A DNA stretch of 64,000 nt from an uncultured Thiohalocapsa sp. (lineage in GTDB: Bacteria; Pseudomonadota; Gammaproteobacteria; Chromatiales; Chromatiaceae), in assembly GCF_913063425.1 (NCBI RefSeq), contig NZ_CAJXYK010000009.1, positions 62,001-126,000 of the forward strand, read 5' to 3'. Below, one piece after another: positions 5,854-51,854 of this stretch. The notes below the pieces were generated by a model that saw only the letters and a program-made list of their open reading frames with translations, was not told where the DNA came from and did no database searches. Position 1 is the stretch's first letter; each line of letters starts with the position of its first letter. The position numbers were made by a program, and so were the translations under genes.

Positions 5854-6463
5854 AGATCTTTACCACGCGCTGCACGCCCGGGATGCGGCGCACCTTCTCG
5901 GCGGTGGCGTCGGCCTCCTCCGGCGTCACCAGCCCCATGAGGTAGACGACGCCGTTCTCGGTGACCACCTTGACCCGCAGGGCGTCGAAGCCGGGGAGCT
6001 TGATGGATTGGATGGCCAGCTTGGCGCGGGAGGTCAGCATGGCGTCTTTGCCCATCTGGCCGACGCCGATCATGGGGCCGACCTCGGCCTCGTTGTAGAC
6101 CTGCTTCACCTTCGGCAGTTGCGCCACCAACCGTGCGTAGCGGTCGGCGATCTGCGCCGTTTCCGCCTGGCCGGTGATGAGCACGGTGTGGTTGTAGCTG
6201 GTGGCCTTGAGCTGGCTGCGCTCGCTGATGTCCGGGTTCTTGAAATAGGCGTCGCGGGCCTGGAGCTCGATGACCTCGTCGTCGATGACGACCCCGGCAC
6301 TGCGCCGGTCGTAGACCACCGCGGCGCTGTAAGTGGCGCCTGCGACCACCATGGGGCCGCAGCCGGAGAGCGCCGTGGCGGTGAGGGCTGGGGCGAGCAC
6401 TGCCATGAGCCCGGCGAGGGCCGAGGCCGTTGCAGAACTGTGGGGTCTTGGTACTCCATGCAT
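5804..6463 (-). CDS. dolP: BON-domain outer-membrane lipoprotein, DolP/YraP family
   Basis: 219 residues, with a lipoprotein signal ending in ALSGC (Cys35). Two BON domains follow at about 61-130 and 140-207; the second has the family pattern RVKVVTENGVVYLMGLVTPEEAD. DolP helps maintain outer-membrane integrity and supports BamA. The start at 6463 is well supported by AAGGAG 7 nt upstream; an in-frame ATG 15 codons earlier has no ribosome site. yraN lies immediately upstream on the same strand with 11 bp between them, and rsmI is divergent, reproducing the rsmI-yraN-dolP neighbourhood known in gammaproteobacteria but without lpoA and diaA. Confidence 0.92.
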   Translation of the reverse strand: MHGVPRPHSSATASALAGLMAVLAPALTATALSGCGPMVVAGATYSAAVVYDRRSAGVVIDDEVIELQARDAYFKNPDISERSQLKATSYNHTVLITGQAETAQIADRYARLVAQLPKVKQVYNEAEVGPMIGVGQMGKDAMLTSRAKLAIQSIKLPGFDALRVKVVTENGVVYLMGLVTPEEADATAEKVRRIPGVQRVVKIFEYIDPQRPNAAADTA

Positions 6464-9530: not shown

Positions 9531-10463
9531 ATGGACCCGCGAGAGCACATTCCGGTCCTGTTGGGGGAAAGCATGCAGGCCTTGGGGGTAAGAGCAGACG
9601 GCGTCTATGTGGACGCCACCTTCGGTCGCGGCGGCCATGCGCGTGCCATCCTTGGGCGCCTGGGCGCCGGCGGCCGTCTGCTCGCCGTGGATCGTGATCC
9701 GGATGCGGTGGCCGCCGGTGCGGCGCTCGCGGCTGCCGACCCGCGCCTGACGCTGCGTCGCGCCCGCTTCGGCGAGCTGCCCGCGCTGGTGCAGCAGGCC
9801 GGGCTCGCGGGGCGGGTAAACGGGCTGCTGGCGGACCTGGGCGTGTCGTCGCCGCAGCTGGACAGTCCGGCGCGGGGCTTCTCCTTCAGTGCCGATGGCC
9901 CGCTCGACATGCGTATGGACCCGGACGTCGGCGTGAGCGCCGCGGACTGGCTCGCCGACGCCGCGGAGCGCGACATCGCCCGGGTGCTCAAGGTGTACGG
10001 CGAGGAGCGCTTCGCCAAGCGCATCGCCCGCGCCATCTGCACCGCCCGTGAGCAGGAGCCGCTCACCACCACCCGTCAGCTCGCGGCCCTGTGCGAGCGC
10101 GCGGTGCCCACCCGGGAGCCCGGCAAGCACCCCGCCACGCGCACTTTTCAGGCGCTGCGTATCCAGGTGAACGCGGAGCTGGAGGAGCTCAAGGCCCTGC
10201 TCGCCGGCGCCTGCGACCTGCTTGCCGCCGGCGGCCGGCTGGTGGTGATCAGCTTCCATTCGCTGGAAGACCGCATCGTCAAGCGCTTCATTCGGGACGA
10301 GTCGCGCGGGGCTGCCCTGCCCAAGGGTCTGCCCGTCACCGATGACCAGGTGCCGCGGCGCCTGAAGCCCATCGACGGCGCCGTACGCGCCGCCGAGGGC
10401 GAGGTCCGCGCCAACCCCAGGGCCCGCAGCGCCGTGCTGCGCGCGGCGGAGCGGCTGGCATGA
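9531..10463 (+). CDS. rsmH: 16S rRNA (cytosine1402-N4)-methyltransferase RsmH (MraW)
   Basis: 310 residues. RsmH N4-methylates C1402, the same nucleotide that RsmI, encoded 2 kb upstream, 2'-O-methylates. The start MDPREHIPVLLGE and DATFGRGGHARAIL (SAM-binding loop) are family hallmarks, followed by LADLGVSSPQLDSPARGFSF, DMRMD, and near the C-terminus VISFHSLEDRIVKRF. The in-frame codons upstream of 9531 (from 9480) show no similarity and were excluded. The gene ends 4 bp inside the start of ftsL (ATGA), showing tight coupling within the cluster. Confidence 0.97.
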   Translation: MDPREHIPVLLGESMQALGVRADGVYVDATFGRGGHARAILGRLGAGGRLLAVDRDPDAVAAGAALAAADPRLTLRRARFGELPALVQQAGLAGRVNGLLADLGVSSPQLDSPARGFSFSADGPLDMRMDPDVGVSAADWLADAAERDIARVLKVYGEERFAKRIARAICTAREQEPLTTTRQLAALCERAVPTREPGKHPATRTFQALRIQVNAELEELKALLAGACDLLAAGGRLVVISFHSLEDRIVKRFIRDESRGAALPKGLPVTDDQVPRRLKPIDGAVRAAEGEVRANPRARSAVLRAAERLA

Positions 10464-10783
10464 GCGCACGGCACGAGGGCGGCACCGACCAGGCCGCACT
10501 GGTGGTGGCACTGCTGCTCGGCGCCGCCGTGCTCGCGTCCGGCGTCGCCGTGATCAACGTCAAATACCTCACTCGCGAGGAGTTCGGCACCTTGCAGCAG
10601 GTGCGCGCGCAACGCGATGCGCTGGACGTGGAGTGGGGCCGCTTGCAGATTCAGGAGGCCGCACTGACGACCCACACCCGCATCGAGGACAACGCCCGCA
10701 CCCAGCTCGACATGATCATGCCCGCGGGTGGCGAGGTGCGGGTGGTGGAAGTGGCCGCCCCGGAGGACGACGATGCGCTTTGA
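10460..10783 (+). CDS. ftsL: Cell division protein FtsL
   Basis: A 107-residue bitopic membrane protein: a short cytoplasmic N-terminus, one membrane segment (about residues 13-34, VVALLLGAAVLASGVAVINV), then a periplasmic coiled coil with heptad-like hydrophobics through EEFGTLQQVRAQRDALDVEWGRLQ. FtsL forms the FtsQLB complex that activates FtsWI. Sequence conservation is low in this family, so the call rests on topology, length and position between rsmH and ftsI. It overlaps rsmH by 4 bp and ftsI by 11 bp. Confidence 0.92.
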   Translation: MSARHEGGTDQAALVVALLLGAAVLASGVAVINVKYLTREEFGTLQQVRAQRDALDVEWGRLQIQEAALTTHTRIEDNARTQLDMIMPAGGEVRVVEVAAPEDDDAL

Positions 10784-12563
10784 GCCCAACCGCACCCGCG
10801 AGCGCATGAAGGCGCGCCTGCGTCGGGCCGAGCTCGCACGGCGCCGCCCGCCGAACTTCACTGCGCGCCGCGCGGTGCTGGGCCTGATGCTGACGGCCGC
10901 CTGCCTGTCCGTGGTGGGGGCCGCCTTCCACCGGCAGGTGCTGGAGCACGAGTTCCTGCGCGACGAGGGCGAAAAGCGCTTCCTGCGCGAGCGCGAGATC
11001 GCCGCCCGCCGCGGCATGGTCACGGACCGCAACGGCGAGCCGCTGGCCATCAGCACCTCCATGTCCACCATCTGGGCGGACCCGCAGCTGCTCGCCGGGC
11101 GCCGCGAGGCCCTGCCGGCGCTGGCCGCCGCGCTCGAGCTGCCCCCGGCGGACCTCGGTGCACGGCTCGATGCCTATGTCGAGCAGGGGCGCCGCTTCAT
11201 GTACCTGCGCCGGCGCGTGGAGCCCAACAGCGCGGACGCCGTGCGCCAGGTCACCGACGGCTATCGCCTCGCCGGTGTCGGCACCGACACCGAGTATCGC
11301 CGCTTCTACCCGGGCGGCGAGATGTTCGGCCAGGTGGTGGGCTTCACCAACGTGGACGACGTGGGCCAGGAGGGCGTCGAGCTGGTGTTCGAGGACCGCC
11401 TGCGTGCGGACCCGGGCCGGCGTCGCGTCATCCAGGACGGGCGCGGTCGCGTCGTGGAAGAGGTCGAGCAGATCAAGCCGCCCGCCCATGGCGAGGACGT
11501 GACCCTGAGTCTGGATCGGCGCCTGCAGTTCCTCGCCTACCGTGAGCTCAAGCGCGCCGTCGCCGAGCACCGCGCCAAGTCCGGCACCGCCGTGCTGCTG
11601 GACGTCACCACGGGCGAGGTCCTGGCGATGGTGAATCAGCCGGCGTTCAATCCCAATGCCGCGCGCAGCGAGCCCGTGGAGCATCGCCGCAACCGCGCGC
11701 TGACGGATGTCTTCGAGCCTGGCTCCACCATGAAGCCCCTGGTGGTGGCCACCGCGCTGGAGGCCGGGATCATCAATGCCCGCACCCCCGTCAACACCGC
11801 GCCGGGGGTGCTCCAGGTGGGCCGCAACCGGGTCCGGGACATCCGCAACTATGGCCTGCTGAACACCACCAGCGTCATCACCAAATCGAGCAACGTGGGC
11901 GTCGTGAAGATCGCGCACAGCATGGACCGCGCCGTGCTGTGGCAGAGCTACGGGCGGCTCGGCTTCGGTCGCATCACCGGCGTCGAGTTCCCCGGCGAGC
12001 GCACCGGCTTCCTGCCGCATTACGAGGGCTGGTCGCGCTTCGAGCACGCCACGCTTGCCTTCGGCTACGGGCTCAATGTCACCTCCCTGCAGCTGGCCCA
12101 GGCCTATGCCGTCATCGCCAACGACGGCGTGCGCCTGCCCGTCTCCCTGCAGCGCCGGGATGCCCTGCCGGCCGGCGAGCGCGTGTTCTCCGCCGACACG
12201 GCGCGTGCCGTGCGCGCCATGATGGAGACCGTGGTTTCCGACAAGGGCACGGCGCGTCGGGCCAAGATTCCGGGCTACCGGGTCGGCGGCAAGACGGGCA
12301 CCGCAAAGAAGGCCACGGGACGCGGCTATGCCGAGGGCAAGTACCAATCCGTGTTCGCCGGCATGGCGCCCATCTCGCAGCCGCGCTTCGTGATGGTGGT
12401 GATGGTGGACGAGCCGCGGGGCGAGTCCTATTACGGCGGCATCGTTGCTGCGCCCACGTTCGCCAAGGTCATGCAGGCGGCACTGCGCCTGTATAACGTG
12501 GCCCCGGACGACCCGCAGGCCGAGCTGCTGCTCGCGGGCCTGAAGCGGGAGGCAAAGCGATGA
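10773..12563 (+). CDS. ftsI: Peptidoglycan transpeptidase FtsI (PBP3)
   Basis: The 596-residue septal class B penicillin-binding protein that cross-links peptidoglycan with FtsW. A membrane anchor lies at about residues 33-55. The three active-site motifs are intact: SxxK in EPGSTMKPL, SxN in KSSNVGV, and KTG in GGKTGTAKKA. The N-terminal pedestal carries the usual RRGMVTDRNGEPLAIS block. The start at 10773 has GGAGGA 7 nt upstream and lies inside the end of ftsL; the frame is open further upstream only by overlap with ftsL. It ends in an ATGA overlap with murE. Confidence 0.97.
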   Translation: MRFEPNRTRERMKARLRRAELARRRPPNFTARRAVLGLMLTAACLSVVGAAFHRQVLEHEFLRDEGEKRFLREREIAARRGMVTDRNGEPLAISTSMSTIWADPQLLAGRREALPALAAALELPPADLGARLDAYVEQGRRFMYLRRRVEPNSADAVRQVTDGYRLAGVGTDTEYRRFYPGGEMFGQVVGFTNVDDVGQEGVELVFEDRLRADPGRRRVIQDGRGRVVEEVEQIKPPAHGEDVTLSLDRRLQFLAYRELKRAVAEHRAKSGTAVLLDVTTGEVLAMVNQPAFNPNAARSEPVEHRRNRALTDVFEPGSTMKPLVVATALEAGIINARTPVNTAPGVLQVGRNRVRDIRNYGLLNTTSVITKSSNVGVVKIAHSMDRAVLWQSYGRLGFGRITGVEFPGERTGFLPHYEGWSRFEHATLAFGYGLNVTSLQLAQAYAVIANDGVRLPVSLQRRDALPAGERVFSADTARAVRAMMETVVSDKGTARRAKIPGYRVGGKTGTAKKATGRGYAEGKYQSVFAGMAPISQPRFVMVVMVDEPRGESYYGGIVAAPTFAKVMQAALRLYNVAPDDPQAELLLAGLKREAKR

Positions 12564-41507: not shown

Positions 41508-42695
41508 TCAGAGCCCGTTCCCAGAGGGTGTCGGCCTCGCCTGCTCCACCGCGGCTCGCCCGGCACGCTGATGCTGTCGGATCACGTCCATGAGCCGGTC
41601 TTCGACGCCGGCGATCACCTGTGGCCAGCTCAAGGACTCCGCGGTTCGCCGCGCGGCGGTGCCGATGGTACGCAGTCGGTCGGGCGCTGCGGCGGCAGCC
41701 ACTGCTTCGTTGATGAAGGCCGGGCGGTCTCCGCAAGGTGCGAGCAGGCCGTTGCTGCCGTGGCGGATGTGCTCGTGGGCGGCGGCATAGTCGAAGGCGC
41801 TCACGGCGAGACCGCTCGCCATCGCCTCGGTGACCACGTTGCCGAAGGTCTCGGTGAGGCTCGGGAACAGGAACAGATCGCCGCTGGCATAGTGCGTGGC
41901 CAAGGCTTCCCCCACGCGGGCGCCGACGAAACGGCAGCCGGGGTGTGAGCGTGCCAGGCGCGCGCGCTCCGGTCCGTCTCCCACCAGCACACACTGGACA
42001 TGGCCGATCCGCGCCGTGAGCGCTTCCATGGTGGCGAGCGCCAGGTCGATGTTCTTCTCCGCGGCAATACGACCGACGTAGAGGGCGACGATGTCGTCCG
42101 GCCCACAGCCCCATTCCCGCCGCAGGGCGTCGCTGCGGCGCGTGGGTGTGAAGAGATCGGTGTCAACGCCGCGGCTGAACAGCTGCACGTTGCGGAAGCC
42201 GACCTCGCTTAGCTGGCTGCGGAGCGCCGCCGTGGGTACCAGAGTCGCATCCGAGCGATTGTGAAAATTCTTCAGCGTGTTGACGATGGGCCGGGTCAGC
42301 AGGCCCAGGCCGTAATGCCGGCTGTACTGGTGGAACTGGGTGTGAAAGCCGGTGATCACCGGGATGGACGCCCGCACCGCTGCGTTCAGCGCCGCATGCC
42401 CGAGGGGGCCCTGGGTGGCGACGTAGAGCACGTCCGGTCGCAGGCGCAGCCAGAGATGGCGCAGGCGCCAGTACACCGGCAGCCCGAAGCGCAGGCCGCG
42501 ATAGCCCGGGATGGGCAGACCCGGCACCAGGAAGTGCCCGCGCGGTGTGCCTCCGCGGCGGTCCGCCGCCTGGCGCGGGCGCACCAGCAGCACCTGGTGG
42601 CCCCGACGCGACAGACCGTCCACCAGCTGGCGCATGGTGTTGGCGACGCCGTTGATCTCCGGCGGGTAGGTTTCGGTGACGACGGCGATGCGCAT
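41508..42695 (-). CDS. GT4-family glycosyltransferase, Agt/lipid-type candidate
   Basis: 395 residues of glycosyltransferase family 4, GT-B fold. MRIAVVTETYPPEINGVANT is the N-terminal acceptor-side loop, GFHTQFHQYSRHYG the following block, FSRGVDTDLFTP the hinge, LYVGRIAAEKNIDLAL the donor domain start, and FPSLTETFGNVVTEAMASG the E-x7-E catalytic motif. The group includes diacylglycerol glycosyltransferases such as Agt, which works with PlcP to replace phospholipids by glycolipids. Location behind olsB-olsA on the same strand (72-bp gap) favours a lipid acceptor, but LPS or exopolysaccharide synthesis cannot be excluded. Confidence 0.88.
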   Translation of the reverse strand: MRIAVVTETYPPEINGVANTMRQLVDGLSRRGHQVLLVRPRQAADRRGGTPRGHFLVPGLPIPGYRGLRFGLPVYWRLRHLWLRLRPDVLYVATQGPLGHAALNAAVRASIPVITGFHTQFHQYSRHYGLGLLTRPIVNTLKNFHNRSDATLVPTAALRSQLSEVGFRNVQLFSRGVDTDLFTPTRRSDALRREWGCGPDDIVALYVGRIAAEKNIDLALATMEALTARIGHVQCVLVGDGPERARLARSHPGCRFVGARVGEALATHYASGDLFLFPSLTETFGNVVTEAMASGLAVSAFDYAAAHEHIRHGSNGLLAPCGDRPAFINEAVAAAAAPDRLRTIGTAARRTAESLSWPQVIAGVEDRLMDVIRQHQRAGRAAVEQARPTPSGNGL

Positions 42696-42767
42696 TGCTG
42701 GTTACCGGGGTCTCAGCCTCGTGTCGTCCGCAGCCGGCTCAGGCCGACACTCATCCCCTCGCCGGCT

Positions 42768-43580
42768 TCAGGCGGCTGCGCCATCGGCGGCGCTCATGTG
42801 AGCCGCATCTGCCGGTACAGCCGCGCTCACGTCCGCGAGGCGGCACAGCTCGGCCGCGACCGCAGCGCGCGCGGTCTCCGCCAGCTCGCGGCGGGAGGCT
42901 GCCTGCGCCGCCACCGGTGGCAGGAAGGTCAGTGTGACCGTCAGACCCGGGTGGCGCAGCACGCGCCCGAGGTGGGCGAGCAGCGTGTCCTCGCCGACGA
43001 AGGGCGCGATGTGGTCCGGCATATGGCCGTTACCGTAGCGGATCGCCACGGGCTGCACCGGCACTGTGCCGTCCTCCGCCGCGGAAAACAGCCTTGCGTG
43101 GAAGCGCAGCAGCCCGCGGCCGTCGCTGGTGGTGCCCTCCGGGAAGATCGCGACGCGGGCGCCGGAACGCAAGCGGCGCGCGATCTCCTGCGCCACCCGC
43201 GGGGCTTCGTGGGCGCCGCGGCGCATGAACACCGTGCCGGCGAGCTCTGCGAGCCAGCCCACCAACGGCCATTGGCGCACCTCCGCCTTGGACAGGAAGT
43301 GCACGGGTGTGGCGCCGCCGAGCACGGGGATGTCCAGCCAGGAGACGTGGTTCACCGCCAACAGCGCACCAGGCGCCGCGCCGCCGCGACAGACCACCCG
43401 AACGCCCAGAGCGCGGGCCAGGCGGCGGTGCCACCAAGCCACCAGCGCGGGCAGCCAGGGACGCGGCGTGCCCAAATGCCCGAGCAGCGCGACGCCGCCG
43501 CCGAGCAGCGCACCCGTGCAGAGATGCTCGCCCAGACGCAGTGCCCGCCAGGCGGGAATCAGCAATCGCCGTGTGCTCAA
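42768..43580 (-). CDS. olsA: 1-acyl-sn-glycerol-3-phosphate acyltransferase family, OlsA-like
   Basis: 270 residues of the PlsC/LPLAT family. The catalytic H-x4-D is in NHVSWLDIP (about 77-85), the glycerol-side FMRRG and FPEGTTSDG motifs follow in standard spacing, and a hydrophobic segment lies near the N-terminus (GALLGGGVALLGHLG). It overlaps the OlsB-like gene by 4 bp, the pairing that in ornithine-lipid producers makes lyso-ornithine lipid (OlsB) and then acylates it (OlsA). The symbol rests on that pairing; on sequence alone a lysophosphatidate acyltransferase is equally possible. Confidence 0.85.
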   Translation of the reverse strand: MSTRRLLIPAWRALRLGEHLCTGALLGGGVALLGHLGTPRPWLPALVAWWHRRLARALGVRVVCRGGAAPGALLAVNHVSWLDIPVLGGATPVHFLSKAEVRQWPLVGWLAELAGTVFMRRGAHEAPRVAQEIARRLRSGARVAIFPEGTTSDGRGLLRFHARLFSAAEDGTVPVQPVAIRYGNGHMPDHIAPFVGEDTLLAHLGRVLRHPGLTVTLTFLPPVAAQAASRRELAETARAAVAAELCRLADVSAAVPADAAHMSAADGAAA

Positions 43581-44344
43581 TGCTCGCCGACACGCTCCAG
43601 AAAGTGGCGGGCGTAGGTCGGATTCAGATCCGCAAGGTCCAGCAGCATCAACACATCGCCCACCGCGAAGTCAGGGTCCCGGCAGGCCTCGCCGCAGGCG
43701 CGCGCGCCGAGGCGCACATAGGCCTTGAGCAGGGCCGGCAGGGGTGCATCCAGGACCTCGGCGGGGACGTCGGTGCGCAGCAGCGGCGCCTTGGGCGTCA
43801 CCCGCAGGGCCGCCGGCGCCATGGCCTGTCGGCGCAGGCGGTTCATGATGGCCGCCGCCTGCACGTCGCCCTCGCCGAGGGGGACCGACGCGCAGCCGAA
43901 CAGATAGTCGATCCCGTGCAGCTGAATATAGCCTGCAATGCCCGACCAGAGCACCGCGATGGCGGCGCCCTGGCGACAATCCGGCGAGATACAGGTGCGC
44001 CCGACTTCCAGAAGCCTGCCCGGCAGGTCCGCAATGGCGCCCAGGTGGAACTCGTTTTCCGAGTAGAAGCCGCCGATGCGCCGGGCGACGTCCCCGTGCA
44101 GCAGCCGCGTGCAGCCCACGACGGCGTCGGACTTGGTCTCGCGCACCAGCAAATGATGGCAGTACGCGTCGAAGGCGTCGATATCGAGCCCCGCGTGGCC
44201 GTGCTTCAGGCGCGCGCCGAGCTCTTCGCCGAAGACCCGATAGCGCAGCGCCTGGGCCTGGCGAATGGCCTCTGGACCAGCCGCCAGCTCCACGTAGAGC
44301 CGCTCCCCCCGACGCACCGGAAGCGCAGATGCATTGACCCCCAT
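43577..44344 (-). CDS. olsB: L-ornithine N(alpha)-acyltransferase OlsB-like (GNAT fold)
   Basis: A 255-residue acyl-ACP-dependent N-acyltransferase of the OlsB family, first step of ornithine lipid synthesis. Diagnostic blocks: AQALRYRVFGEELGARL, FDAYCHHLLVRE, VVGCTRLLHGDVA, RLLEVGRTCISPDCRQGA and YLFGCASVPLGEGDVQ. The ATG at 44344 has GAGG 8 nt upstream; the frame is open further upstream across the neighbouring HAD gene in another phase, which was excluded. A three-copy PHO-box-like array lies 71 bp upstream. It overlaps olsA by 4 bp. Ornithine lipids replace phospholipids when phosphate is short. Confidence 0.9.
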   Translation of the reverse strand: MGVNASALPVRRGERLYVELAAGPEAIRQAQALRYRVFGEELGARLKHGHAGLDIDAFDAYCHHLLVRETKSDAVVGCTRLLHGDVARRIGGFYSENEFHLGAIADLPGRLLEVGRTCISPDCRQGAAIAVLWSGIAGYIQLHGIDYLFGCASVPLGEGDVQAAAIMNRLRRQAMAPAALRVTPKAPLLRTDVPAEVLDAPLPALLKAYVRLGARACGEACRDPDFAVGDVLMLLDLADLNPTYARHFLERVGEH

Positions 44345-44414
44345 CGAGCTCACCTCGGCGAAACACTGAACCACCGGCCAATGGCCCAGCGTAGCCGAAC
44401 AGGGTTGCAGGCTG

Positions 44415-44502: not shown

Positions 44503-45168
44503 TCAGTGGGCATCGCCATGCAGCGAAATCACGGGCCACCGGCGCTTGCGCGCCACCTCTGCCAGCAGCGGGTCCGGGTCCACGGCGACGGGGTTGTCCA
44601 CCCGTTCCAGCAGCGGCAGGTCGTTGATGGAATCGCTGTAGAAATGGCTGTCCGTGAGGCACTCGTTCTGGTCGGCGAGCCAGGCCATGAGCCGGGTGAC
44701 CTTGCCCTCGCGGAAGGCGGGTACGCCGGCCACACGGCCGGTGTAGCCGCTGCCGTCGTGCTCGGGCTCGGTGGCGATGAGGTGGGGAATGCCGAAGCGC
44801 GCCACGATGGGCGCGGTAACGAAGGCATTGGTGGCCGTGATCACCAGCAGGGTGTCGCCGGCGCGGCGGTGCTGCTCCACCAGGTCCAGCGCCGGCTGCC
44901 GGATCAGCGGGGCGATGTGCTGGTCCAGGAATGCCTGCCGCCAGGCGAGCAGCGCCGGCTCCGGATGGTCGCGCAGCGGACGCAGCGCGAAGGCGAGGAA
45001 GGCGTCGATGTCGAGCCGGCCGGCCTTGTAGTCGGCATAGAAACGGGCGTTCGCCGCGGCATATTCCGCGCCGTCCACGACACCCTGCGCCACCAGGTGC
45101 TGGCCCCAGAGGTAGTCCGAGTCGCCGGCGAGCAGCGTGTTGTCCAGATCGAAGATGGCGAGCGGCAT
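44503..45168 (-). CDS. HAD-IB family phosphatase (SerB/CicA-like)
   Basis: A 221-residue haloacid dehalogenase-type phosphatase of subfamily IB. Motif I is FDLDNTLL at the very N-terminus (nucleophile D7, acid D9), motif II the Thr in [10 protein letters not shown], and motifs III/IV are the Lys in FREGKVT and [12 protein letters not shown]. An insertion cap lies at about 20-80. Members occur beside or fused to PlsC-type acyltransferases, hinting at lipid phosphate substrates; phosphoserine is another option. It is the first gene of the minus-strand group running through olsB and olsA, separated from olsB by 158 bp holding the PHO-like array. Confidence 0.88.
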
Positions 45169-45998: not shown

Positions 45999-48263
45999 AT
46001 GCTGGCGACATTAAGACGCATCATCGACGCCGTTGACCGTGCGCCCGCGCTGGATGCAGCGCTGGCCGTGGTGGTGCGTGACGTGAAGCAGGCCATCGGC
46101 GCCGATGTCTGCTCCGTCTACCTCACCGACACCGCCCGCCGCGAGCATGTGCTGATGGCCACCGACGGTTTGCCGCCGGCGTCCGTCGGCCGGATACGCA
46201 TCCCCCTGCATCGGGGGCTCATCGGCCGTGCCGCCGAGCGCGCCGACATCGTCAATCTGGACGATGCCCACACGCACGCCTGCTATCTCGCCATCACCGA
46301 CAGCGGCGAGGAGCCCTTCCACGGCTTCCTCGGCGTGCCCATCATCCAACACCGCCGGGTGCTCGGGGTGCTGGTGCTGCGGCGGCGGGCGGCGCAACGC
46401 TTCGCCGACGACGAGGTGACCTTCGTCATGACCCTGGCGATGCAGCTCGCCGCCGCCATCGCGCTCGCGCGCGGCAGCGGCGAGCTGATGCGTCTCCAGC
46501 AGCCGGGGCTGCCGAATCACTTTCTGGAGGGCATTGCGGCGGCGCCCGGCGTGGGCATCGGCACGGCCTACGTGGTCTACGCCCCGGCGGACCTGGATGC
46601 GGTGCCGGACAAGCCTGCGTCGGACCCGGATGCGGAGATCAAGCGCTTCCGCGCCGCGGTGGCCGGCGTCGCCGCGGACATCGGCCGGCTCGCCGAGCGC
46701 ATGGGGGGCACGTTGCGCGACGAGGACCAGGCGTTGTTCGATGCCTGGCGGCTGATGCTGGAGAGCGAGAGCCTCGTCGCCGACACCATCGCGCGCATCC
46801 GCGCCGGCAATTGGGCGCAGGGCGCGCTGCGGGCCACTGTCGCGGAGCTGCTGGCGGAGTTCGACCGCGTGGACGATCCCTATCTGCGCGAGCGCGGCTC
46901 AGACGTGCGCGACCTCGGCCGCCAGGTGTTGGTGCGCCTCCAGCACGGTGCCACGCAGCAGGCGGCGAGCTATCCATCGCAGACGCTGCTGGTGGGGGAC
47001 GAGATCAGCGCCATGCAGATCGCCGCGGTGCCGCGGGAGTCCCTCGCCGGCATCATCAGCCGGCGCGGCTCGGCGTCGTCGCATCTGGCGATCCTGGCCC
47101 GGGGCATGGGGGTGCCGGCGGCGGTGGGCGTGCTGGAGCTGCCGGTGAGCCGGCTCGAGGGGCGCGCCATGATCGTCGATGGCTACCGCGGGCGGGTGTA
47201 CGTGGAGCCGTCCGCCACGGTGGCCGCCGAGTATCGGCGGCTCGCCGTGGAGGAGCGCGCCTTCTCCGCCGAGCTGGAAGCCCTGCGCGGGCAGCCCTCA
47301 GAAACCACGGACGGCTTCGCGCTGCCGCTGTATCTGAACACCGGCCTGGTGCTGGAGCAGCGGCCGCTGGGCATCGACGAGTCCGCCGGCGTCGGGCTCT
47401 ACCGCACCGAGCTGCCCTTCATGGTGCGCGACCGCTTTCCGGGCGAGGAGGCGCAGCAGCGGCACTATCGCCAGGTGCTCACGACCTTCGCGCCGCGGCC
47501 GGTGACCATCCGCACCCTGGACGTCGGGGGCGACAAGCCGCTGCCCTACTTCCCGGTGCACGAGTCCAATCCCTTTCTCGGCTGGCGCGGCATCCGCATC
47601 ACCCGCGACCACCCGGAGATCTTCATGACCCAGGTGCGGGCCATGCTGCGCGCGGCGGTGGGGCTCGACAACCTGCAGCTGCTGCTGCCGATGATCACCA
47701 CTGTGGACGAGCTGGACGACGCCCTGGCGCTCATCCAGCGCGCCTGCGACGAGCTTCAGGAAGAGGGCCACGCGGTGCGGCTGCCACCGGTGGGGGTGAT
47801 GATCGAGGTGCCGGCGGCCGTGTACCAGGCGGATGTGCTGGCGCGGCGGGTGTCCTTCCTGTCGGTGGGGACCAACGACCTGACGCAGTATCTGCTGGCC
47901 GTGGACCGCAACAACGCCCGGGTTGCGGCCCTCTATGACGAATTCCATCCCGCGGTGCTCCGGGCCCTGATGCAGGTGGCGGAGGCCGCACGCGGCCATG
48001 GCCGGGAGGTCACTGTCTGCGGCGAGCTTGCCGGCGATCCGCGCGCCACGCCGCTGTTGCTCGGGCTCGGTGTCCACAGCCTCAGCATGGGGGCCGGCAG
48101 CCTGTTGCGCGTCAAGGGCGTGGTGCGCAGCATCAGCCGGACCCGGGCGCGGGAGCTCCTGGCCCGCGCCCTGCTCTGTGAGCGCGGGGCCTGCGTGCGG
48201 GCCCTGCTGATGGACGCGCTGGAGGAGATCGGCCTCGGCGGGCTGGTGCGCCCCGGGCGCTGA
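45999..48263 (+). CDS. ptsP: Phosphoenolpyruvate-protein phosphotransferase PtsP (EI-Ntr)
   Basis: 754 residues, first enzyme of the nitrogen phosphotransferase system. An N-terminal GAF domain (about 15-165) senses small molecules such as glutamine; the EI domains follow. The phosphorylated His is in RRGSASSHLAILARGMG, and the PEP-binding barrel has VGLYRTELPFM, RTLDVGGDKPLPYF, PVGVMIEVPAAVY, SVGTNDLTQYLLAVDR and VTVCGELAGDP. All catalytic residues are present. The downstream phosphocarriers NPr and EIIA-Ntr are not in this window. Pairing with rppH is conserved in gammaproteobacteria. Confidence 0.96.
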   Translation: MLATLRRIIDAVDRAPALDAALAVVVRDVKQAIGADVCSVYLTDTARREHVLMATDGLPPASVGRIRIPLHRGLIGRAAERADIVNLDDAHTHACYLAITDSGEEPFHGFLGVPIIQHRRVLGVLVLRRRAAQRFADDEVTFVMTLAMQLAAAIALARGSGELMRLQQPGLPNHFLEGIAAAPGVGIGTAYVVYAPADLDAVPDKPASDPDAEIKRFRAAVAGVAADIGRLAERMGGTLRDEDQALFDAWRLMLESESLVADTIARIRAGNWAQGALRATVAELLAEFDRVDDPYLRERGSDVRDLGRQVLVRLQHGATQQAASYPSQTLLVGDEISAMQIAAVPRESLAGIISRRGSASSHLAILARGMGVPAAVGVLELPVSRLEGRAMIVDGYRGRVYVEPSATVAAEYRRLAVEERAFSAELEALRGQPSETTDGFALPLYLNTGLVLEQRPLGIDESAGVGLYRTELPFMVRDRFPGEEAQQRHYRQVLTTFAPRPVTIRTLDVGGDKPLPYFPVHESNPFLGWRGIRITRDHPEIFMTQVRAMLRAAVGLDNLQLLLPMITTVDELDDALALIQRACDELQEEGHAVRLPPVGVMIEVPAAVYQADVLARRVSFLSVGTNDLTQYLLAVDRNNARVAALYDEFHPAVLRALMQVAEAARGHGREVTVCGELAGDPRATPLLLGLGVHSLSMGAGSLLRVKGVVRSISRTRARELLARALLCERGACVRALLMDALEEIGLGGLVRPGR

Positions 48264-48313: not shown

Positions 48314-50344
48314 TCAGGCCAGCACGGGGTAGGCGAGGTCGAGCTGCGCCAGCGGCCGCGCGGCGCCGGCGGGCGAGAGCGGCGCATAGCGCTGGACCGC
48401 CGCGGCGTCCATGCGGCCCGCGATGCGGTGCAGCTCCGTCAGGCGCGCACCCTGGCGCACCAGGTAGGCGAGGTAGGTGTGCCGCAGCACTTCGGGAGTC
48501 ACCTCCGCTGCGTGTGCCAGGCCCGCATCCAGCGCCAGCAGCGGAATGCGTCGCGCCAGCTCTTCTGCTTCCTCCGGGCGCTGCCAGGCGGGCAGAGGGT
48601 CAGCGTCCGCGAACAGATCCGCCAGCGCCGCCGGCAACGCGATGCGCCGGCCGTCGCCGGGTGCGGTGACCTCGCGACTGTCGAGCGCGAAGTCCGCAGG
48701 CGTCATGGCCGCGATGTCCGTCAGGTCCAGGCCGCACAACAACAGGCCCATGAGCTGGCGCTCGCCGTCGTCGGCGAGCTCCCACAGGGCCTCCACCTCG
48801 CCGCCCATGAGCTGCCGCGGTGCGGCATCCGGCAGGGCCGGCTGTGGCTCGCGGGCCTGGGGCGCATGGCCGAGCTCCGCGCCGGGCGCGGCGCGCGGCA
48901 GCTGCCGGCCCTGGGGTTGCTCGGCCCCCCCCGGTCCCCAGATGCGCACCCCGGTCATGGGCGTCCGCCGGCGCGGGCGGCGCGCCGCATCCACCAGGGC
49001 GAGCCCGAAGAGCGTCAGCAGGCCGGCGCCGCCGGCGAGCGCCGTGGTGACGCCGAGGTCGCGCAGATAGTCCGGGCGCACCGGGTCACGCGGCGGGTGC
49101 GCGGGCTCGATGATCTCAATCTGCGGATAGTCGTCGATGGCGCGGGTCTCCACGGCCACGCGCTCGCGCTCCTTCTGCCGCTGCAGCTCGTCCAGCGCCG
49201 CGAGGTCCGTTTCCAGATCCTGGTAGGTCTCGAAGTCGGCGCTGAAGCCTGAGGCGACGCGTTTCTGCTCGGCGAGCTCGCGCTGCAGCCGGAACAGCCG
49301 GTCCGTGGCCGTTTCCACCTCCCGCTGCGCCGCCGTGAGCGCCGCCTCGGCACCCTGGCGCCTGACGGTGTCCATGCGCGCCCGCAGGCGCTGCAGGGCT
49401 TCCGGCAGGGCACGCTTGTCCGGGTCGTTCTGGATGAACATCTCCGTGTAGCGCTTTTGCAGCTGATTCACCTTGACGACGAGCTCGGACTCCTGCTCCT
49501 CAAGCCGCGCCAGCGTCGCCGCCTGCTCCTTGGCCAGCACCGGCTCGCCGCGGGCGGCGGCGGCCTCGATGGCGGCGAGCTTCGCCCTGGCCTTGATCTG
49601 GGCGTCCTCGGCATCGGCCAGGGTGTCCTGGAGGCTGTTCAGGCGCTTCAGCGCGCGATTGCTGTCGCGCTCCAGCGTGACGATGTCGTGCTGCTCGCGA
49701 AAGCGTCTCAGTGCCGCGCGCTTGGCGGCGATCTTGGCTTCCAGGGAGTCGCCCTGATCGGCGAGCTGGGTCAGCTGGGCGCCGACCCGAGCCTGTATCT
49801 CACGCTGGCGCAGCTCCTCGTAGGCGTCCAGCCAGGCATTGACGATGTCGGCGAGGAGCAGGGGCGCGCCGCCCTCCGCGCTCAGCTCCACCAGGTTGGT
49901 GCCGGGCACGGCGTCCACGGTGAGCAGGGGGCGCAGGTCGTCCGGTGTCGGCGGCGGCGTGGCGCCCGCTGCTTCCACCTGGGCGATGGTGTCGGTGAGC
50001 AGCTGGCGGCCCAGCAGCAGCTGTCGCTGGATGGCGACGTGCTGCAGGTCGGCCTCGCTGCGCCCGGCGCCGTTGCGCTCGGCCGGCACCGTGGTGAGCA
50101 CGGTGGCGGTGGCCCGATACACCGGCGGGCGGCTGAAATTCCACAGCGTCAGGGGCGCCGCCACCACCGCGAAGACGGCGAGGAACCAGAGGAGCATCGA
50201 CAGCGCGCTGCGGCCCGGCGACACGGTGGTCTCCTCCGGCGCATCCGCTCCGGTGACCACCTCGATGTGCGGCCCGCCGCCGCCCGACATACCGGGCAGG
50301 GCTGTGTGCGGCTCCGGGCTGCGCAGCTGTTGTGCTTGACTCAC
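48314..50344 (-). CDS. Wzz/GumC-like chain-length protein fused to a tyrosine-recombinase-like domain
   Basis: 676 residues. Residues 45-455 are a polysaccharide co-polymerase: membrane segment 49-68, VYRATATVLTTVP strand, DLRPLLTVDAVPGTNLVEL (136-154), long coiled coils 180-300 and 315-400, IEIIEPAHPPRDPVRP and a second membrane segment 430-450. After a Pro-rich linker, residues 512-676 look like a tyrosine recombinase catalytic fold: LLLCGLDLTDIAAMTPADF where GLR-x-SEL is usual, then TPEVLRHTYLAYLVRQGARL, IAGRM and QRYAPLS. Arg621 and Tyr653 are kept, but Arg I is Asp540, the HxLR His is Glu618 and the LGH His is Arg644, so recombination is unlikely. It is monocistronic, with no polysaccharide cluster nearby. 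Confidence 0.8.
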   Translation of the reverse strand: MSQAQQLRSPEPHTALPGMSGGGGPHIEVVTGADAPEETTVSPGRSALSMLLWFLAVFAVVAAPLTLWNFSRPPVYRATATVLTTVPAERNGAGRSEADLQHVAIQRQLLLGRQLLTDTIAQVEAAGATPPPTPDDLRPLLTVDAVPGTNLVELSAEGGAPLLLADIVNAWLDAYEELRQREIQARVGAQLTQLADQGDSLEAKIAAKRAALRRFREQHDIVTLERDSNRALKRLNSLQDTLADAEDAQIKARAKLAAIEAAAARGEPVLAKEQAATLARLEEQESELVVKVNQLQKRYTEMFIQNDPDKRALPEALQRLRARMDTVRRQGAEAALTAAQREVETATDRLFRLQRELAEQKRVASGFSADFETYQDLETDLAALDELQRQKERERVAVETRAIDDYPQIEIIEPAHPPRDPVRPDYLRDLGVTTALAGGAGLLTLFGLALVDAARRPRRRTPMTGVRIWGPGGAEQPQGRQLPRAAPGAELGHAPQAREPQPALPDAAPRQLMGGEVEALWELADDGERQLMGLLLCGLDLTDIAAMTPADFALDSREVTAPGDGRRIALPAALADLFADADPLPAWQRPEEAEELARRIPLLALDAGLAHAAEVTPEVLRHTYLAYLVRQGARLTELHRIAGRMDAAAVQRYAPLSPAGAARPLAQLDLAYPVLA

Positions 50345-50511: not shown

Positions 50512-51582
50512 TCAGGCCGCGGCGTGATAGGGACGGCTCAGCTCGTGTACCGCTTCCACCATGGCCGCAGCATGCTCCGGATTGGTGTCCGGATGAATGC
50601 CGTGGCCCAGATTGAAGACATGACCGTTGCCGGCGCCGTAGCTTGCCAGCACCCGGCCCACCTCGCGCCGGATGCGCTCCGGCGAAGCATACAGCGTGCA
50701 GGGGTCCAGGTTGCCCTGCAAGGCGACCTTATCCTGCACCAGGCGGCGTGCGTCGGAAAGATCGGTGGTCCAGTCCACGCCCAGGGCCTCGCAGCCGGTC
50801 TCCGCCATGCGGTCGAGCCACTGCCCGGCGCCTTTGGAGAAGAGCACCACGGGCACGCGGCGGCCGTCGGCCTCGCGGGTCAGGCCCTCCACGATGCGCT
50901 CCATGTACCGCAGGGAGAACTCGCGGAAGTCGCCGGGTGTCAGCACGCCGCCCCAGGTATCGAACACCATGGCCACTTGAGCGCCGGCGGCGACCTGGGC
51001 GTTGAGATACTGCGTCACGGCTTCCGCCACCTTGGCGAGCAGCGCGTGCATGAGGTCCGGGCGGTCGAACATCATGGCCTTGCTCTGCGCGAAGTGCTTG
51101 GTGGTGCCGCCTTCGATCATGTAGGTGGCCAGCGTCCAGGGGCTGCCCGAGAAGCCGATGAGCGGGACCCGGCCGGCGAGCTCGCGGCGGATGGTGCGCA
51201 CGGCGGCCATGACGTAGCCCAGGTCGTCTTCCGGGTCCGGCACGCGGATGCGCTCCACGTCCGCCGCCGAGCGCACCGGGTGCTCGAAGTGCGGGCCTTC
51301 GCCTTCAGCGAAATAGAGTCCGAGCCCCATGGCGTCGGGCACCGTCAGGATGTCCGAGAACAGGATGGCCGCGTCCAGCGGGAAGCGCTCCAGCGGCTGG
51401 ATGGTCACTTCGCAGGCGAGCTCGGGGTTGCGGCACAGATCCATGAAGCTGCCGGCGCGGGCGCGGGTGTCACGGTACTCGGGCAGATAGCGTCCGGCCT
51501 GGCGCATCATCCAGACGGGTGTGTAGGCGACGGGTTCGCGCAGCAGGGCGCGCAGCAGGGTGTCGTTGGCGAGCTCAGTCAC
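50512..51582 (-). CDS. hemE: Uroporphyrinogen decarboxylase
   Basis: A 356-residue enzyme that decarboxylates uroporphyrinogen III to coproporphyrinogen III in heme and, where present, bacteriochlorophyll synthesis. [16 protein letters not shown] (substrate arginines), [47 protein letters not shown] and [16 protein letters not shown] are signatures. The start is a GTG at 51582 ([16 protein letters not shown]), chosen by family length; upstream in-frame codons are not conserved. hemW, another heme-pathway gene, lies 4.4 kb away on the other strand. Confidence 0.96.
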
Positions 51583-51854
51583 GGGCGGGTGTTTCCGGCG
51601 GCTTCGGTGGTCAGGGAGGCGCTCGGCGAGCGCCGATGGACTGTCGTTGTCGTGCGGACCAGCGTGCGGTCCAGTCGAACGCGTCGGTGGCAGCGGCGGC
51701 GCCGAGCAGGTGTCGATGTCGGCGGAGACTGCCCTCTCGTCGGCTGCGCCGGCGATGCTGCGCAGCATACTACAGGGCACCTTGCCGCGAGCAATGGGCG
51801 CACGGCGTGCGGCCTGCGTCAATGCATCGTGGCTGCGTGCCGGCGCGCTGCCGG

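Follow-up and report, generated by a model that had tools for sequence, protein, structure and literature searches.

In this study, we characterized a gene of an uncultured Thiohalocapsa sp. that encodes a polysaccharide co-polymerase-like inner-membrane protein ending in a pseudo-recombinase, i.e. a cytoplasmic domain homologous to tyrosine recombinases in which the catalytic set is lost. The explanation favoured here, to which we give an even chance, is that this domain would act as an oligomerisation or partner-binding module; it relies on sequence comparisons and predicted models, and the function is inferred. The combination of domains seems to be undescribed in the literature searched, which comprised open-licence papers only and does not constitute proof. 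The growth and export of surface polysaccharides are controlled in part at co-polymerases, and the regulation of those without a kinase is largely open, so that a fusion of this kind, conserved and selected among purple-sulfur bacteria and some of their relatives, would provide a natural test case for phosphorylation-free control. It would also show a DNA-recombination fold relocated to the cell envelope, beyond the known DNA-binding repressors.

The gene lies in a window (the whole stretch of DNA analysed) of 64,000 nucleotides. Its open reading frame contains no internal stops and the gene is intact; an ATG at codon 19 is an alternative start. The following parts were distinguished:

48314..50344, minus strand: whole gene, polysaccharide co-polymerase-like protein with a C-terminal pseudo-recombinase domain (676 aa, GTG start)
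50132..50206, minus strand: first membrane helix, residues 47-71 (AlphaFold2 helix; hydropathy >1.6 in 19-residue windows starting at 43-53)
49070..50131, minus strand: periplasmic part, residues 72-425, with an alpha/beta base and long coiled coils, Wzz/Wzc-like (AlphaFold2, Foldseek, TIGR03007)
48980..49069, minus strand: second membrane helix, residues 426-455 (AlphaFold2 helix; hydropathy 1.6-1.75 in windows starting at 430-436)
48833..48979, minus strand: cytoplasmic linker, residues 456-504, disordered and faster-evolving (pLDDT <50 at 456-507; dN/dS 0.33-0.52)
48317..48832, minus strand: pseudo-tyrosine-recombinase domain, residues 505-676 (AlphaFold2, Foldseek/VIA, profile search of PDB sequences, dN/dS)

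The full-length AlphaFold2 model (ten sequences; mean pLDDT 79.6, pTM 0.39) shows a helix at residues 47-71, an alpha/beta base, long coiled coils and a helix at residues 426-455, with low-confidence stretches at 1-43, 87-94 and 456-507. The motif RRPRRR after the second membrane helix agrees with the positive-inside rule. Foldseek searches with this model gave Wzc as the best match (E 5.2e-10), followed by KpsE (6.3e-5), the full-length co-polymerase 6rbg (3.0e-4) and WzzE (5.0e-4), with low whole-model TM-scores (0.19-0.26 over all matches, 0.20-0.26 to Wzc) and large rmsd. The best NCBIfam match of the N-terminal part was the XrtA-system chain-length protein TIGR03007 (E 9e-16, residues 52-469), at 57.2 bits below its cut-off of 278.85, and Pfam Wzz (PF02706) also stayed below its cut-off (E 0.16, 12.7 bits vs 25.5). 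As the curated-family matches are weak or below cut-off and the TM-scores low, the protein is named co-polymerase-like, even if predicted structure, fold matches and hydropathy all show the architecture required of a PCP, a large alpha-helical periplasmic domain flanked by two membrane helices.

The protein resembles PCP-2a proteins (Wzc of E. coli) in that a pair of membrane helices encloses a large alpha-helical periplasmic part and a cytoplasmic domain follows. However, in Wzc this domain is a BY-kinase, and its place is taken here by the pseudo-recombinase; the defining feature of PCP-2a, a fused BY-kinase, is absent and the cytoplasmic domain has a predicted recombinase fold. Among the families that Pfam (E up to 10) and NCBIfam (E up to 1) listed for the window protein, there was no kinase. 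In one relative (L018), kinase-protein models do match, in the periplasmic part only. With the XrtA-system TIGR03007/GumC-like PCPs the protein shares the matching N-terminal part, but it differs from them in its extra domain, its sub-cut-off score and the presence of a nearby exosortase gene in only one carrier.

When modelled alone, residues 498-676 gave a confident AlphaFold prediction (pLDDT 91.9, pTM 0.87), whose nearest PDB folds, among 300 chains compared, were tyrosine recombinases. These included XerA (Foldseek 1.6e-6; Z 15.9, 5.0 Å over 159 residues), P2 integrase (Z 15.3, 2.7 Å over 143 residues) and HP1 integrase (Z 15.1, 2.6 Å over 146 residues), as well as the recombinase-fold repressors SroF (Z 12.4) and MrpR/YopR (Z 10.7-11.2). 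A profile of the 38 relatives, searched against PDB sequences, matched IntI4 (8.2e-15), a XerC-like protein (5.2e-11), XerD (7.2e-11) and XerA (5.1e-9). Single-sequence matches were weak (Pfam PF00589, E 0.0061, C-terminal part; NCBIfam XerA, 2.5e-4), and Pfam Phage_integrase was found in 14 of the 38 sequences scanned singly at E ≤0.1 (best 1.4e-6). Matches in PHROGs were integrases and nameless families, and those in a viral structure library were integrases, tyrosine-recombinase proteins and unnamed entries. At the level of profile similarity and predicted structure, homology of the C-terminal domain to tyrosine recombinases is established. A sequence-only reading of the same DNA had proposed a degenerate recombinase stretch of 165 cytoplasmic residues and named structure prediction as a check: the stretch is real and its predicted structure has the recombinase catalytic fold, while its extent had to be revised to about 220 aa with the linker, of which the domain occupies approximately residues 505-676 (172 aa). 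Recombinases hold DNA with an N-terminal core-binding domain. This domain is absent here, and only the linker with pLDDT <50 (456-507) precedes the recombinase-like domain.

The residues at the active-site places are encoded by the following codons (counts refer to the 38-sequence alignment):

48725..48727, minus strand: D540, Arg-I place (never Arg)
48491..48493, minus strand: E618, place of the HxxR His (never His)
48482..48484, minus strand: R621, Arg-II place (Arg 26/38, Trp 11/38, Gln 1/38)
48413..48415, minus strand: R644, third-site His/Trp place (His 1/38, Trp 0/38)
48386..48388, minus strand: Y653, place of the nucleophile Tyr (Tyr 22/38)

Arg-I and the HxxR His are thus missing from all 38 sequences and the third-site His from 37, while Arg-II is kept in 26 and the nucleophile Tyr in 22. 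The acidic residue three positions after Arg-I is retained throughout (D543 in the window protein; E or D in 38/38). The beta-hairpin Lys appears to be lost as well (D564 in the window protein; Lys in one of 38), at a place where the alignment is gapped. Judged from the aligned residues, none of the 38 sequences is capable of being a normal recombinase, and an active enzyme was rejected as an explanation, the catalytic set being lost across the alignment. The positions assigned earlier to D540, E618, R621, R644 and Y653 were recovered in the alignments and the residue losses support the non-catalytic reading made from them; its list of lost residues (Arg-I, HxxR His, third-site His) holds, but omits the apparent loss of the hairpin Lys. 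Seven columns are invariant in the 38 sequences (G538, Y624, L628, Q631, G632, G643 and P673) and seven more are nearly so. G538, G632 and G643 are Gly in XerD also, Y624 and Q631 correspond to Phe and His, respectively, in XerD, and P673 lies outside the XerD-aligned part.

Loss of active-site residues, together with the absence of the domain from one lineage (see below), could be taken to mean that a recombinase gene was fused by chance and that the domain drifts without function. Such a relic is scarcely credible and is disfavoured here: dN/dS of the domain is 0.13-0.25, about as low as that of the N-terminal part (0.12-0.29; linker 0.33-0.52), and the seven invariant and seven near-invariant columns are likewise not what a relic would retain. 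These ratios were calculated by a simple Nei-Gojobori count in six pairwise comparisons, the six partner sequences being drawn from Thiohalocapsa and a Chromatiaceae MAG, and they are rough since dS of the domain reaches about 1.1. Given dN/dS of 0.13-0.25, the pseudo-recombinase domain is, on this estimate, under purifying selection.

The same layout was found in 37 other aligned sequences. A chance open reading frame was therefore rejected, as was a frameshift joining two genes, which the sequence-only reading had named as a possible refutation; besides the shared fusion, dN/dS is well below 1 in both halves of the protein in the six comparisons. Before the 38-sequence counts were made, several entries were dropped: the window gene itself (L001, L069), three duplicates (L003, L004 and L015, equal to L032, L033 and L039), a copy cut by a contig end (L017), one without the C-terminal domain (L030), a fragment (L031) and an ordinary GumC protein (L002). 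One further sequence (L081) was found later; it has the domain and stands outside the counts.

The survey across genomes that had been suggested together with the first reading revealed a fusion reaching into the domain in 28 of 146 same-family genomes (counted from the match table). Some match was present in 75 of the 146, the other 47 mostly resembling ordinary GumC-type proteins or true integrases, according to the part matched. Profile searches detected full-length fusions in at least 6 of 369 class genomes and at least 3 of 398 phylum genomes; each of these two counts includes the window's own genome, and G466 is in both. All these counts are lower bounds, as up to eight candidates per genome were scored in the same-family search and three in the class and phylum searches. 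Among the named relatives (nine loci) are Thiohalocapsa, a Chromatiaceae, a Methylococcaceae, a Sedimenticola and a Nitrosomonas MAG. The window's genome (G000) is placed in one genus with G081, and the closest relatives are 77-78% identical; the G081 copy and that of Thiohalocapsa halophila DSM 6210 have identical ends (L003 and L032).

Distances between the N-terminal parts and between the C-terminal parts of the 38 sequences are correlated (r 0.59; highest of 2000 permutations 0.21), also in a thinned set of 29 from which nine near relatives had been removed (r 0.51; highest of 2000 permutations 0.28). This is as expected of one old fusion whose parts were inherited together, and the correlation indicates that the domain has travelled with its N-terminal part. 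In G105, a relative of 478 aa (L062) lacks the pseudo-recombinase domain, and the domain is therefore dispensable in that lineage. The same genome contains a second copy of the co-polymerase part (L064, G105:C1:2897000-2916900, at about 5965-6429 and 10243-10839), which is interrupted, probably through an insertion, by about 3.8 kb of other DNA.

The earlier inference for the domain had been a DNA- or partner-binding role. A membrane-tethered DNA-binding module that has kept sequence-specific binding, as in the SPbeta repressor MrpR, would anchor a promoter or the chromosome at the envelope. The repressors MrpR/YopR and SroF are indeed among the fold matches (Z 10.7-12.4) and share with the fusion a degenerate tyrosine recombinase fold; MrpR is reported to have lost recombination and yet to bind DNA. 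Strongly basic linkers occur in L037 and in the Thiohalocapsa sequences, and four of the 38 domains are neutral or basic. However, net charge is negative in the remaining 34 (mean over the set -3.7 per 100 aa), a strongly basic linker is rare elsewhere (L011 has one), and the domain is preceded by a disordered linker alone, without a core-binding domain. MrpR has such a domain and is proposed to grip DNA in a positively charged two-domain groove, whereas the fusion domain is acidic and predicted to be membrane-bound. Recombinase domains of the same genome were positively charged in 9 of 10 cases (Mann-Whitney p 5e-6 vs fusion domains); these controls were the 10 longest of 15 same-genome recombinase matches, five short integrase matches (L092-L096) being omitted. 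A DNA tether is therefore considered unlikely. Because the domain is acidic in 34 of 38 sequences and the core-binding domain is absent, the evidence leans towards the partner half of the earlier inference; DNA binding is not excluded, because four members are neutral or basic.

The immediate neighbours of the gene in the window are:

50512..51822, minus strand: hemE (uroporphyrinogen decarboxylase; Pfam URO-D), upstream neighbour in the same direction
45999..48263, plus strand: ptsP-like PEP-utilising enzyme with a GAF domain, convergent neighbour

The true start of hemE probably lies inside this open reading frame, and 167 bases separate it from the fusion gene. hemE stands beside the fusion in the window, at most Thiohalocapsa loci, at L037 and in three other genomes (L042-L044); the genes of the window and L042 were identified with Pfam, those of L032, L033, L035, L036, L037, L043 and L044 through blast clustering. 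No neighbour conserved at all loci was detected by blast clustering, and a conserved partner gene next door, sought as a candidate, was not found at the loci examined. Neighbours named by Pfam are unlike each other (e.g. hemE, citrate synthase, multihaem cytochromes, queuosine synthesis, ABC transporter genes and ferrochelatase), and a clear polysaccharide gene was recognized among none of 30 neighbour proteins tested with Pfam from 13 loci. At the loci examined, the fusion mostly stands apart from polysaccharide genes, a point against the favoured explanation. Small proteins directly beside the fusion gave no Pfam family at E 0.001 (L040, L050, L056) and no NCBIfam family at E 0.01 (L040, L050, L056, L059). 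Genes at the loci were called with a simple codon-usage script instead of a standard gene finder, and it missed hemE of the window; others may be missed or shifted.

The lack of a conserved adjacent partner gene at these loci speaks against the possibility that the domain is a receptor, i.e. a docking site at which a regulatory protein or peptide binds as a cytoplasmic signal and so switches the co-polymerase, much as in the repressor-antirepressor pair SroF-Sar. That pair is itself a fold match (Z 12.4), although the complex is known to us from its entry title only, and residues which differ from those of the aligned Xer proteins (Y624, Q631) or extend beyond the XerD-aligned part (a C-terminal tail with P673) are present in 38/38 sequences. 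We regard a receptor as a doubtful possibility; it overlaps with the favoured explanation, and sequence data cannot tell the two apart. Recruitment of active recombinases, or interference with them, by co-oligomerisation at the membrane with XerC/XerD or an integrase is very unlikely. XerD of the same genome and an integron-type integrase score clearly with the profile, but such scores are expected from common ancestry, nothing was seen that ties the gene to dif or division, and the sign of the charge has changed. With Xer recombinases and integron integrases the domain shares the catalytic-domain fold and detectable sequence homology; it differs from them in the loss of the catalytic set and of the core-binding domain.

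In the favoured explanation, an oligomerisation or partner-binding module, a flexible linker would tether the degenerate catalytic domain on the cytoplasmic side, where PCP-2a (Wzc) has its tyrosine kinase. In recombinases bound to DNA, the catalytic domains form a ring of mutual contacts. Contacts of this kind between neighbouring subunits may help the co-polymerase to assemble and disassemble; as a second option, the domain may dock a cytoplasmic partner. Either way, chain growth or export would be set without tyrosine phosphorylation. A more specific version, that the pseudo-recombinase replaces the PCP-2a kinase ring and forms, by DNA-free cyclic contacts, a phosphorylation-independent cytoplasmic ring gating chain growth, is put forward only tentatively, well short of an even chance, and no oligomer was modelled. 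If true, this would add a third mode of control over co-polymerase assembly to those by kinases and pseudokinases.

By analogy, there would be a parallel to pseudokinase-based PCP-2 proteins such as EcpK/EpsV. EcpK is described as a non-catalytic cytoplasmic protein needed by a PCP-2, and in both EcpK/EpsV and HfsB/HfsA (a PCP-2 with a stand-alone BY pseudokinase) a non-catalytic cytoplasmic enzyme fold is proposed as a phosphorylation-free guide of the co-polymerase (PMC12004946). In these systems, the partner has a kinase fold and is a separate protein, whereas here the fold is that of a recombinase and is fused.

A link to polysaccharide was examined at the genome level. Exosortase (PF09721) was found in 26 of 28 carriers vs 41 of 80 non-carriers (the first 80 of 118), and at a 150-bit threshold, chosen post hoc, in 24/28 vs 32/80 (Fisher p 2.4e-5). 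Counted by genus, the association is weaker (14/15 vs 31/54, Fisher p 0.013), with some genera in both groups; in either count it is uncorrected for relatedness. Among the 26 exosortase-bearing carriers, the exosortase gene lies near the fusion only in G141 (L039), about 6 kb away. OPX genes occur in 24 of the 28 carriers (no control set). The fusion gene may be accessory, since an ordinary GumC-like gene, adjoining an OPX gene, is present separately in its own genome.

Several further arrangements were observed. In two genomes of one genus (L056 3263-7954, likewise L058), the fusion is on the same strand as an unknown 317-aa gene and ABC transporter genes, which in L056 are NodJ/NodI-like; this is a possible operon. 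A family of 184-188 aa proteins occurs downstream of the fusion in three genomes (L057 12145-12699, L059 10879-11445, L061 10980-11546), with no Pfam match (L057) and no NCBIfam match (L059). In the window, genes for a GT4 glycosyltransferase, an OlsA-like acyltransferase and an OlsB-like ornithine acyltransferase lie at 41508-44350 on the minus strand, with a HAD hydrolase at 44503-45168. Matches to the Ols families of NCBIfam are strong though below cut-off, and the cluster at 41508-44350 is probably an ornithine-lipid or glycolipid locus.
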